Assembly: GCF_003967195.1 (NCBI RefSeq)
Contig: NZ_AP018725.1
Span: forward strand, 2,848,001-2,912,000
Length of the DNA: 64,000 bases
Direction of reading: 5' to 3'
Source of the DNA: Sulfuriflexus mobilis
GTDB lineage: Bacteria > Pseudomonadota > Gammaproteobacteria > AKS1
Shown one piece after another: positions 12,219-61,732 of this stretch; position 1 is the first letter of the stretch; each line of letters begins with the position of its first letter. A model generated the notes under the pieces. That model ran no database searches and was not told the DNA's origin. It was given only the letters and a program-made list of their open reading frames with translations. Position numbers and translations under genes: made by a program.

Positions 12219-12958
12219 GCCTGCCTGCTTTTAATAGTTCAATAGCTCAAAGAACCCTGCAGGTTACACCATAGAACCTGTTCAGGTTCGTTATGAGTAC
12301 CCCACCCGTACCGAATCGGGGTAACCTCAACCTTCTCCGATGTCTGCGGAGCTTACGATTTCTACGTATTTGCAAGCTTCCTAGGTTGTCAAATTCACCA
12401 CTCATAGATGCCCTGACGCTGGAAGCGTAGGGTACTCATGATGGAGCTTGAAAAGCTCCTATGAGCCACTACGGGTCCATCATGCTGTCTCATAGAATGC
12501 TTGCAGCATTCATTATGAGTACCCCACCCATACCAGGTCGGGGCAACCTCAACCATCTCCGATTTATCTGTGCTTAGTTGAGTTCTTACGTTTATGTGAG
12601 CTTCTTAGGTATCTTATTTAACCACTCATAGATGCCCCGACGCTGGAAGCGTAGGGTACTCATGATGGAGCTTGAAAAGCTCCTATGAGCCACTACGGGT
12701 CCATCATGCTGTCTCATAGAATGCTTGCAGCATTCATTATGAGTACCCCACCCATACCGGGTCGGGGCAACCTCAACCATTTCCAATGGGTCAGGGCAAA
12801 AAAAGCCCCGTCATTGCTGACGGGGCTTTTATCATTTAGCTCGCGCATAGATACCTACGGCATCATCATGCTGTCTCACAGAATCCTCTTCGGGTTACAC
12901 CATAGAACCCTGCGGGTTCATTATGGATACCCTAACCACTTCCAGTGGTTCAGGGCAA
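12219..12958. repeat. 740-base repeat field of two-hairpin elements
   Basis: The region between the converging ends of pilU and the porin gene holds no credible gene. It has six copies of a two-hairpin element: forward at 12270-12328, 12491-12550, 12715-12772 and 12901-12958, and reverse at 12411-12465 and 12634-12690. Each reads CATAGA, a first hairpin, AT(C/T)ATGAGTACCC, a second hairpin, then a GGGCAA-like end. Stems differ between copies but stay paired, for example GAACCTG/CAGGTTC, GGAGCTT/AAGCTCC, GAATGCT/AGCATTC and GAACCC/GGGTTC. The reverse-forward pair is itself duplicated with a 223-bp period (12401 and 12624). Confidence 0.85.
12801..12830. terminator. bidirectional rho-independent terminator
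   Basis: A perfect 13-bp stem, AAAAGCCCCGTCA at 12801-12813 and its complement at 12818-12830 around a TTGC loop, ends in T runs on both strands. It can stop transcription from pilU and from the converging porin gene. It is embedded in the repeat field between two copies of the hairpin element. Confidence 0.9.
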
Positions 12959-14431
12959 TTAAAAAAGATACGTTAACTGCAGGCCCATGCGGTCACCAAT
13001 TGAATCCGTAACAATGTCGACATTGTTATTGGATGCGCCAGCAACCGTCGCATTAGAGAAGGCGGCCGTGTAATCATTTGGTTTTTCAACATCGCGGAAG
13101 CCGTAGTTAAAGGTCAAACGCGCCTTCGGTGTGAAGTGATAGGTAACACCCAATGTGGTTTCATCGATTTCACGCTCATTACCCGGGTCGATGCCTGCGG
13201 CGACAGAATACAGGCGCTGTTCACGCGCCCAACGGATGTCAAACTGCCAGTGCTTGTCGAGATAGAAGCCATATTCTAATTGTAAGGCGCGTGATTTGTT
13301 GTCTTCATCGGCAGCCAATTGAACTGTCCCTACGAAAGGGTTACCCGTTTGACCTGCGACACCCGCAACAGGGCCAAGGAAGATCATGCCTTTGGCATAT
13401 TCAAGCTCGGCGGCAAAGCGGTGTTTGTACTTGGAGCCAAAGAATTTGCCCAGACCCTTAACACCAACACCGTAGCGGGTACGGTCAAATTCTTCACCCG
13501 TAGGGTCGGTGTAGAACTGGCGCTCACCACTCTGGTGCCAGGCAAACATCTTCACGCCATTCTTGCGTGGGCCTTTCCCGCCTGGCAGCAATTTTTCTGC
13601 TGAGGCATAAAGATATAGTTCCTCGTTGTTATCGCTGTCACTGCCGCGGCTAATGGATTCGCCACGACCGACCTTGACGGCGTAGCTCAAGTCCCACGAA
13701 TTGTTGGCAACCTTAAAACTATCAAAGACCTGCACACCCCAGTCACGCGCCGCACTAAAGCCATAGGCCTCACGCTGTGCCGTGCCGATGTCATCTGACC
13801 CCGGTACTTGACCGACAGCAGTGGTATTACCACTGTAGAAATTTTCCAGTACCTGTGCCGCACCAAAGGTGGTGAATTCGATGAAATCAATGGTATGGAC
13901 AGCCTGAAAGATTTCTTCTGAAATCGGGTTTTTGAACAAACCTGCGCGGATACGGGCGCCCGGGATATGGTTAAAGGTCAGGCTGGCATGGTCGAGCGAG
14001 ACCGGGCGACGATCTGTACTAAATTGGTTCTGATTGAACAGGCCATCATCGAGTGCCAGCAGGCCGAAGTAGTTAATCTTCGAGGTAAAGCTATTTAATA
14101 ACGGCCCCGATAAACGACCACGCATCCCCAGGCGTGCGCGACGCAGGTAGACTTGTTCGGTCTCGTTAAAGTCAGGGACAACGGTATTAGGCACGGCATA
14201 AGAGCCGTTAGCAGGGGCACCTACAAGGGTGAGCCCTTTCAATTTTTCAGCACCCGGGTTAGCACTGTAGGCAGGCTGAACAAAGGCAAACAGACGGTGA
14301 TCCGGCGCCTTTTTCCCTTCCGTGCCCTGCAACATCAGCCAGTTAGCAGCACTGGCGGTACCCGTGAGCAGCAGCCCTGACAGGCAAGCAACCGTAGTCA
14401 CCGCATGCTTAATATGGGGGGATATGAACAT
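12959..14431 (-). CDS. outer-membrane porin (phosphate-selective porin O/P type)
   Basis: This 490-residue beta-barrel protein starts with a signal peptide (VACLSGLLLTGTASA, then ANWLM) and ends in QLTYLF with the terminal phenylalanine needed for outer-membrane insertion. Alternating beta strands fill the rest, with features such as YLRRARLGMRGRL and SRALQLEYGFYLDKHWQFDIRWAREQR. This pattern suits the OprP/OprO-like porin family (Porin_O_P). A TTG at 14443 lengthens the frame, but GGAGAG lies five bases before the ATG at 14431, which I chose. The final coding bases abut a two-hairpin repeat. The substrate is unknown. The divergent sigma/anti-sigma pair may regulate it, which is an inference from position only. 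Confidence 0.8.
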   Translation of the reverse strand: MFISPHIKHAVTTVACLSGLLLTGTASAANWLMLQGTEGKKAPDHRLFAFVQPAYSANPGAEKLKGLTLVGAPANGSYAVPNTVVPDFNETEQVYLRRARLGMRGRLSGPLLNSFTSKINYFGLLALDDGLFNQNQFSTDRRPVSLDHASLTFNHIPGARIRAGLFKNPISEEIFQAVHTIDFIEFTTFGAAQVLENFYSGNTTAVGQVPGSDDIGTAQREAYGFSAARDWGVQVFDSFKVANNSWDLSYAVKVGRGESISRGSDSDNNEELYLYASAEKLLPGGKGPRKNGVKMFAWHQSGERQFYTDPTGEEFDRTRYGVGVKGLGKFFGSKYKHRFAAELEYAKGMIFLGPVAGVAGQTGNPFVGTVQLAADEDNKSRALQLEYGFYLDKHWQFDIRWAREQRLYSVAAGIDPGNEREIDETTLGVTYHFTPKARLTFNYGFRDVEKPNDYTAAFSNATVAGASNNNVDIVTDSIGDRMGLQLTYLF

Positions 14432-37427: not shown

Positions 37428-37460
37428 GCCTTGACCTCACTGGGACAGTGAGGTAGGGAT

Positions 37461-37813
37461 CATAGATGCCTTTCAGGCATCATCATGAATACCCCACTCA
37501 CGTCTAGTGAGTCTGGGCAACTCATAATGACCAGAACCTGCGGAGCAGGTGCAGGAAATCCCTAATGAAGCTCGTAGAGATTCTTGGGAGAAACCCGTTA
37601 GGGTTCTGTGAGCGCCCTGACACTCCGAAGGAGGGTGGTGGCTCATAGAAGCTTTTCAAGCTTCATCATGAGTACCCTACGCTTCCAGCGTCAGGGCGCT
37701 CAAAGAAACTTTTCAAGCTTCATCATGAGTACCCTACGCTTCCAGCGTCAGGGCGCTCAAAGAAACTTTTCAAGCTTCATCATGAGTACCCTACGCTTCC
37801 AGCGTCAGGGCAA
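37461..37813. repeat. second field of two-hairpin elements with a 57-bp tandem triplet
   Basis: One copy lies at 37461-37523 (first stem GATGCCT/AGGCATC, second ACTCAC/GTGAGT). Three near-identical copies follow in tandem at 37644, 37701 and 37758 with a 57-bp period (first stem GAAGCTT/AAGCTTC, second ACGCT/AGCGT). Copies two and three carry one mismatch in the first stem. Between them, 37530-37640 holds other hairpins (GAACCTGC, AACCCGTTAGGGTT) and a segment resembling 60440-60505. The last copy runs into the 3' end of the DUF427 gene. Confidence 0.85.
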
Positions 37814-38087
37814 CTTCGACATCTTTCCAGAAGGCAACATGGTCTTTAATCCGGTCTGCGGCGGCTTTCGGCGCAGGGTAATACCAGGCCGCATCAGGAT
37901 GGGTCTGTCCGTTCACAACAAGGTGGTAATAATGTGCTGTGCCCTTCCATGGGCAGGCAGTGGTAGTCGGGGAGTTTATAAAATACTCGGCATGGATCGC
38001 CGCAGCAGGGAAATAGATGTTGCCTTCCAGCTCAACACAGGCATCGCTCTCGGCGAGTAACACCCCTTGCCAGCGTGCCTGCCACAC
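37791..38087 (-). CDS. DUF427 domain protein
   Basis: This 98-residue protein shows IYFPAAAIHAEYFINSPTTT followed by CPWKGTAHYYHLVVNG, the DUF427 (Nucleotidyltransferase-like beta-barrel) signature with the conserved CPWKG. The function of the family is not established. The last residues (VALTLEA) and the stop codon are encoded inside the third tandem copy of the hairpin repeat, so insertion of the repeat has rewritten the C-terminus. It is followed in the same direction by no other gene. Confidence 0.87.
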   Translation of the reverse strand: MWQARWQGVLLAESDACVELEGNIYFPAAAIHAEYFINSPTTTACPWKGTAHYYHLVVNGQTHPDAAWYYPAPKAAADRIKDHVAFWKDVEVALTLEA

Positions 38088-60615: not shown

Positions 60616-61515
60616 ATGACACGTTTTACTATAGCCGCACTGGCCGCCGGCCTGTTGCTAGGCAGCAGTCTGTTACAGGCGGCCGAAGAAGCCGCCGGCA
60701 AGACCCTGACCTGGGTCGGTTGCGGTATTTCCAAAAAGGCCTTTATGGCCGAACTGGCCGCTGCCTATGAGAAAAAGAGCGGGGTCAAAATAGACATCCA
60801 GGGCGGCGGTGCGACCCGCGGTATCCGTGAGGTGGCTGCCAAGAATGCCGACATGGGTGGTACTTGCCGGCACAAGATCGACGGTGAGGCCAAGGAGCGC
60901 GGTGCCTCGCTCGAACCCGTGGCCTGGGATGCGCTGGTCGTCATCGTCCACCCCGATAACCCGGTCGACAACATCACCTTTGACCAGATCCGTGGTATCT
61001 ACTTAGGCAAGATCACCAACTGGAAGGAATTGGGTGGCAATGATGCCCCCATCCGCCTGCTGGTCCGCAAGGGCAAGATCTCCGGAGTTGGCCGCGCCCT
61101 GCGCAAACTCGTGTTCGCCGACTACAACCAGGAATTCAAGGCCACCGAGGTCATGAAATCCTCAGGCCCGCTGGAGAAGGCCGTGGTCGAGGACGTCAAT
61201 GCTATTGCGGTAACCGGGATCAGCTCGGCCCGTAAGCGCAAGGTGAAAAACCTCAAGCTCGATGGCAAGGAACCCACTTACGACAACATCCGTGCCGGTG
61301 AGTACGGCCTCTACCGCCCTCTCTACCTGGCCGTGAACAGGCACGGCAAGAATGCAGAGGAGGTCGACAAATTCATCAAGTTTGCCCACAGTGCGGAGGG
61401 CCGGCAGATTATCCGTAATAACGGCACTGTGCCCTACCTTGATGCCCTCAAGCTCGTCCTCAAGCAGGTCGAACAGGAAGAACGTGCCAACGAACGCGGC
61501 CTGTATCAGAACTGA
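60616..61515 (+). CDS. PstS-like phosphate-binding periplasmic protein
   Basis: This 299-residue protein has a signal peptide (IAALAAGLLLGSSLLQA) and the PBP-like pattern: TWVGCGISKKAFMAELAAAYEKKSGVKI, GGGATRGIREVAAKNADMGGTCR, FDQIRGIYLGKITNWKELGG, and GISSARKRKVKNLKLDG. This fits the PstS-like family. No pstC, pstA or pstB is adjacent, so it may be a stand-alone scavenging protein. GGAGGAG precedes the ATG, a strong ribosome site. No Pho box was recognised. Confidence 0.85.
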   Translation: MTRFTIAALAAGLLLGSSLLQAAEEAAGKTLTWVGCGISKKAFMAELAAAYEKKSGVKIDIQGGGATRGIREVAAKNADMGGTCRHKIDGEAKERGASLEPVAWDALVVIVHPDNPVDNITFDQIRGIYLGKITNWKELGGNDAPIRLLVRKGKISGVGRALRKLVFADYNQEFKATEVMKSSGPLEKAVVEDVNAIAVTGISSARKRKVKNLKLDGKEPTYDNIRAGEYGLYRPLYLAVNRHGKNAEEVDKFIKFAHSAEGRQIIRNNGTVPYLDALKLVLKQVEQEERANERGLYQN

Positions 61516-61534: not shown

Positions 61535-61563
61535 AAAAGGCCCTTTCCGGAGGGCCTTTTTGC
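61535..61563 (+). terminator. rho-independent terminator after pstS-like gene
   Basis: AAAAGGCCCT and AGGGCCTTTT form a perfect 10-bp stem around TTCCGG, followed by T. Confidence 0.95.
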
Positions 61564-61620
61564 CTCGAACCATTGGAAATGGTTGGGGTACGGATAATGA
61601 AGCCCGATAGGGATTCTATG
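61561..61620 (-). repeat. single two-hairpin element (reverse orientation)
   Basis: Read on the minus strand this is CATAGA, a first hairpin GAATCCC/GGGCTTC, ATTATCCGTACCCC, then a second hairpin AACCATT/AATGGTT. It matches the elements at 12.3-12.9 and 37.5-37.8 kb, with new stem sequences. It directly follows the terminator of the pstS-like gene. Confidence 0.78.
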
Positions 61621-61732
61621 CGCGCCCTGCCCCCTTCACTTTTTTCACCCCTATAAACGCGCATACACGGAAGAATTCCTGTAAAATGCGCGCTTTGCCC
61701 CGCCGTCTTAGCGTCGCCGGCCAGATGAAATT

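Follow-up and report, generated by a model that had tools for sequence, protein, structure and literature searches.

The window analysed here is a stretch of 64,000 nucleotides, positions 2848001-2912000 of the single 3,111,340-base contig of Sulfuriflexus mobilis. It holds 11 strong copies of a two-hairpin repeat, all at E <= 1.2e-8 with R1, a covariance model built from five equal-length copies. Six copies lie in 12269-12957, four in 37459-37812, and one at 61561-61622 on the minus strand. The first-pass annotation of this DNA had claimed the same 11 copies (6 + 4 + 1), and the covariance model recovers all of them. The copies are not equivalent, some being nested in others and some inverted inside others. 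Two open frames overlapping them (12685-13011 and 37608-38060) were judged spurious and set aside. The features are:

12269-12323, plus strand: copy 1 (R1 43.1 bits), within a disrupted outer copy (GGTTAC joined to ACCATAG)
12342-12400, plus strand: upstream module U, ending TTCACCA (alignment of U modules)
12409-12465, minus strand: copy 2, of the inverted subtype (CATCATGAG), enclosed by an outer copy (R1 87.9 bits)
12489-12545, plus strand: copy 3 (R1 73.9 bits)
12564-12624, plus strand: second U module, ending TTTAACCA, part of a 224-bp tandem unit (sequence; copy spacing from 12409 to 12633)
12633-12689, minus strand: copy 4, inverted subtype (R1 84.9 bits)
12713-12769, plus strand: copy 5 (R1 80.6 bits)
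12771-12799, plus strand: hairpin 2 (CCTCAACCATTTCCAATGGGTCAGGGCA) of the array's outer element, directly adjoining an A-run (sequence; relatives show the same layout)
12800-12829, no strand assigned: A-run and intrinsic-terminator hairpin adjoining the array (sequence)
12899-12957, plus strand: copy 6, nested subtype (GGGTTAC joined to ACCATAG; R1 46.1 bits and flanks)
37459-37519, plus strand: copy 7, past the terminator of the upstream gene (R1 55.0 bits)
37528-37589, minus strand: weak twelfth copy, TCCCTAG nested subtype, in a broken inverted copy (R1 23.9 bits, E 2.6e-4)
37642-37698, plus strand: copy 8, first of three in a 57-bp tandem (R1 86.8 bits)
37699-37755, plus strand: copy 9, tandem (R1 74.1 bits)
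37756-37812, plus strand: copy 10, tandem (R1 75.9 bits)
61561-61622, minus strand: copy 11, directly after the terminator T-tract of the gene at 60616-61515 (R1 40.4 bits; sequence)

Each unit consists of two hairpins. Hairpin 1 runs CTCAT, A, 7 bp, loop, 7 bp, AT(T/C), ATGAG, with inner arms such as GAACCC/GGGTTC. Hairpin 2 runs CCCTA, stem, loop, stem, T, C, AGGG, with the C bulged and a tail CA after it. The fixed linker described earlier dissolves into these stems: its ATGAG supplies hairpin 1 with its 3' arm, which pairs and covaries with the 5' CTCAT (as CTCAC/GTGAG, CGCAT/ATGCG, CCAT/ATGG and CTTAT/ATAAG), and its ACCC makes up the 5' foot of hairpin 2, so that only TA (UA in RNA) joins the hairpins. 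In three sets the element consensus starts with CTCAT or CCCAT and ends with GGCA.

The stems change in sequence and stay paired. The alignment from the own genome (85 distinct rows) has pairing in 93.5% of pair cells and double changes at 20 of the 21 pairs, against 32-45% paired cells in slid controls of the same alignment. Among relatives (again 85 distinct rows) the values are 90.8% and 19 of 21. Both alignments were fitted to the structure and hence lean towards it, a minor concern beside so large an effect and the result of the slid controls. The covariation first proposed from the window therefore extends to the genome and to its relatives, with compensatory double changes. Not all stems of the window are flawless: the copies at 37699 and 37756 carry an A.C mismatch, and the copy at 61.6 kb a T.C mismatch. 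The 74 distinct copies of the genome use 20 outer-arm, 33 inner-arm and 32 hairpin-2 arm sequences; the stems may take almost any sequence provided that they pair. Near-invariant are A6, the AT bulge, the TA between the hairpins, the bulged C with its neighbouring A-U pair, and the tail. These positions, unpaired or next to unpaired ones, are 84-100% conserved in three independent sets. Compared with shuffled sequences, most of the single copies tested have a folding advantage of 4-8 sd, whether as RNA or DNA, which is weak or missing in decayed or short variants. As DNA, either strand folds.

The covariance-model search suggested in the first-pass annotation was run on the genome and its relatives. 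With R1 and R2, a second model built from 72 copies, the genome yields about 80 copies (a lower bound) with a repeat unit of about 55-65 nt. The exact core TCATNATGAGTACCC occurs 16 times genome-wide, and its reversed control not at all. Almost every copy is intergenic, and gene ends precede about 90% of them. At the end of many copies comes an A-run and then a GC hairpin; these copies lie just past the terminator of the gene on the 3' side, and this gene points at the copy in 20 of the 24 A-run copies with a scorable gene. Such terminator-adjoining copies are antisense to that gene. In several of them the other neighbour points away, and therefore no sense transcript is expected. Clusters are enriched near the replication origin, as inferred from GC skew (the origin-proximal 40% contains 33 of 46; KS p 1e-5), and show no replication-strand bias (22 of 40). 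Module U, about 60 nt long and ending TTCACCA, precedes many copies and builds arrays with them. A tandem array at 2378490-2379222 holds seven near-identical copies in 112-bp steps; in the fetched stretch 2378376-2379222 (L077, L345; C1), this array begins 41 bases after a tRNA gene. Rfam gave no match for the element, and neither a plasmid search nor a literature search with the literal element sequence returned anything relevant.

Pairing in RNA tolerates G-U and not A-C, which allows the folded molecule to be told from the substitutions. The element shows 33 G-U and 53 A-C in 3434 pair cells, with three leaky pairs left out. As a control, tRNAs of the same genome, scored on ARAGORN cloverleaf positions, show 37 G-U and 0 A-C in 767 cells. 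RNA-type wobble tolerance is absent on either strand, and since G-U is not commoner than A-C, the structure is kept in DNA and not in RNA. It is thus well supported that structure-level conservation acts in DNA, and the best reading of these sequences is that a folded DNA strand would be what is recognised. The first-pass annotation had proposed selection on structure in either RNA or single-stranded DNA; the structure and the DNA level stand, and the RNA option falls with the missing G-U tolerance.

Comparison with close relatives argues for mobility. Each of three congeneric genomes has 15-20 copies. Two sister species are syntenic over a 12.6-kb block that contains four element sites (I-IV) with readable junctions, and none is common to both species. 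Such filled and empty orthologous sites are expected of a non-autonomous mobile element, and they support, at the DNA level, the earlier suggestion of mobile units. Site II holds a single element between two AACTT. At site III, one species has an element and modules directly after the T-tract (GGGCCTTTTTTT joined to GCCCTGAACC), and the same terminator has no element behind it in the other three genomes; about 115 bp of the empty genome are missing from the filled one, which indicates that insertion edges are not always clean. Site IV, a porin terminator, is filled in two genomes and empty in two. On a wider scale, among the loci fetched from the relatives, 8 of 11, 7 of 16 and 6 of 10 overlap loci of the own genome, which together cover about 8% of it. 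These common loci could be either old copies persisting or the same terminators struck again. Genome-specific subtypes at common sites would fit renewed targeting or local replacement.

Copies occupy recurrent positions: terminator T-tracts, REP palindrome arms, and hairpin 1 of the element itself. Nested copies occupy a fixed position, GGGTTAC[ACCATAG..GGCA]ATTATGAG or GGGTTC[TCCCTAG..GGTC]ATTGTGAG, and the inverted subtype is placed inside the 5' arm of another copy. Left flanks vary by subtype (TTAC, TGG, TTCACCA, GCTGCG).

Beyond the genus, R2 matches were found in 19 of the 369 gammaproteobacterial genomes, from about a dozen families; the carriers include the cultured Thiohalophilus thiocyanatoxydans DSM 16326 (loci L115, L122, L124, L129). 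Pattern matches outside Gammaproteobacteria and in viral contigs were dismissed as chance, the covariance model finding none there. One carrier, G083, is complete in one contig, and all 11 of its copies sit at the same point inside one REP palindrome arm (..GCCGCGCTGCG[CCCATAG..GGCA]TCGCAATGACG). Within the stretch printed, an intact REP arm stands opposite the copy in 10 of the 11. For the intact short-form REP, 77 matches were obtained in this genome, and the REPs and spacers differ between its near-identical element copies. Both insertion into REPs and a joint spread of REP plus element are possible explanations of this pattern. G083 has no match to Y1_Tnp or RAYT, and neither is therefore needed to hold near-identical copies, and perhaps not to spread them.

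What, then, would move the element? One candidate explanation is a REP-like family with a RAYT (TnpA-REP) as its mover, or else a PATE that depends on a Y1 transposase of the IS200/IS605 group. The conserved bulges are typical of TnpA-REP substrates (PMC8266576), and all three congeners encode a RAYT of about 170 aa (NF047646, 158.7 bits) between a porin-like gene and rpiA. The own genome, however, has no ortholog of this genus RAYT, and the 3' flanks of the congeners' RAYT genes carry a different REP. The RAYT loci of G001 and G002 hold no element copy, and that of G003 is flanked by copies only on its porin-terminator side. The porin-rpiA RAYT was accordingly rejected as the mobiliser, with elements beside it in one relative, none in two, and elements without the RAYT in the own genome. 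Apart from the one-sided G003 case, no copies lie near the other Y1 genes scanned in element-bearing genomes. Three carriers, G083 and the drafts G093 and G097, match neither NF047646 nor PF01797 (Y1_Tnp). A RAYT-family match is present in 16 of the 19 element genomes, but RAYTs are common regardless (209 of 350 element-free genomes), and we do not find the co-occurrence convincing. The foot of the element, moreover, has no GTAG or CGTC tag. We therefore consider the RAYT or Y1 mobiliser of the first-pass annotation unlikely: a RAYT-moved REP is not supported, and the element may work like a REP. Elsewhere in the own genome lies a longer RAYT-like transposase (284 aa with a C-terminal extension, just over the cut-off; L017 1006-1860, minus strand), flanked by inverted GGGGTCAGGTCTTG repeats, and there is also a truncated IS200-like gene fragment (L018 1483-1788, minus strand). 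The classical REP behind the congeners' RAYT keeps a TGCGA..TCGC frame with an inner stem that differs per species (L223, L227, L231).

It is also rather unlikely, in our view, that no dedicated enzyme exists and that both spread and re-pairing of stems result from replication template switching between palindromes (quasi-palindrome correction). Such a process would fit the hairpins nested in hairpins, the copies in inverted orientation, the Watson-Crick double changes without wobble intermediates and the near-identical copies in G083. Yet correction should erase bulges, and the near-invariance of the AT and C bulges disfavours re-pairing by template switching alone; besides, whole elements of near-constant length land beside unrelated terminators. 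Very unlikely is a transcribed element that works as a structured RNA or in a 3'-UTR (as terminator, mRNA stabiliser or sRNA). Its stable RNA folds, its intergenic placement behind gene ends, and some sites common across species speak for it; the lack of G-U excess, the copies beyond T-tracts and antisense to the terminated gene, several with no expected sense transcript, the missing Rfam match, and the copies inserted inside REPs and each other speak against it. The wobble result and the position beyond the T-tracts likewise disfavour the structured RNA that had been offered as an option earlier. The terminator option fares no better, the element having no U-tract and adjoining the real terminators.

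Our preferred reading, which we consider fairly probable, is that these repeats are non-autonomous mobile DNA elements of about 55-65 nt, conserved as a folded single strand and targeting hairpins. A DNA-processing enzyme acting in trans would recognise the fold through its extrahelical bases, excise or copy the strand, and insert it where another hairpin exposes single-stranded DNA. Several observations count against this mobile-element reading, namely that the Y1 and RAYT genes scanned include no candidate for the mobilising enzyme, the absent strand bias, the unclean edge at site III, the differing left flanks, the many loci shared among species of the genus, and the chance that in REP-bearing genomes REP and element spread together as one unit. 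By analogy with integron attC sites, we also put forward, tentatively, a more specific possibility: a minimal element that a yet-undiscovered enzyme may read purely as a folded strand, by shape and a few extrahelical bases, and that lands on terminators, REPs, its own kind and possibly tRNA arms.

In our assessment the element is a new family among the small palindromic mobile repeats. REPs, REPINs and BIMEs are short, intergenic, palindromic and non-autonomous, with tens to hundreds of copies and modular clusters (PMC3116915, PMC3733652); their stems vary between families, and some REP dimers lie inside other palindromes (PMC3116915, PMC3733652). The element shares the short, intergenic, palindromic, non-autonomous, many-copy and modular character. 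In contrast, it has two hairpins per unit with conserved bulges, a stem that is near-free within one genome, neither of the two REP tags and no flanked RAYT, and it may be REP cargo. In IS608, too, there are two hairpins; they are recognised in single-stranded form, and an unpaired base is the determinant (PMC8266576). The two hairpins are likewise shared with IS200/IS605 PATEs, but no Y1 gene with these ends was found, there is no fixed 5' target tetranucleotide, and a replication-strand bias as in IS608-type elements is absent. Integron attC sites are recognised on a folded single strand by shape and extrahelical bases, and their stems are poorly conserved in sequence. The element would resemble them in these respects, but occurs as scattered single copies with no cassette arrays seen; the attC core boxes RYYYAAC/GTTRRRY are absent from its consensus. 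Pneumococcal BOX elements combine an upstream module with repeated hairpin modules and form intergenic arrays. The element is similarly modular, arrayed and intergenic, with an unrelated sequence, and to our knowledge insertion into hairpins is not known for BOX elements.

Genomic evidence for DNA folding as a unit of selection is rare. The wobble test tells DNA from RNA, and points to the unpaired bases that a putative enzyme would read. About 80 natural substrates in one genome, and 11 in a genome without a Y1 transposase, provide a test set for finding such an enzyme. CGTC REPs have no known dedicated transposase (PMC3733652), and the substrate set could be useful for finding the movers of these and similar orphans. 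Terminators and REPs serving as hairpin landing sites bear on intergenic growth and on assemblies broken by repeats.

In other genomes, one copy lies within a tRNA T-arm-like sequence (L246 1485-1575) and another abuts the 3' end of an apparent tRNA gene (L242 1501-1602); tRNA arms may be a further hairpin target. A large palindromic repeat (GCGCTGCGTAGGTCAG..CTGACCTACGCAGCGC) holds a copy of the element in one species but not in the other (L289 1-360, L288 4600-4800).
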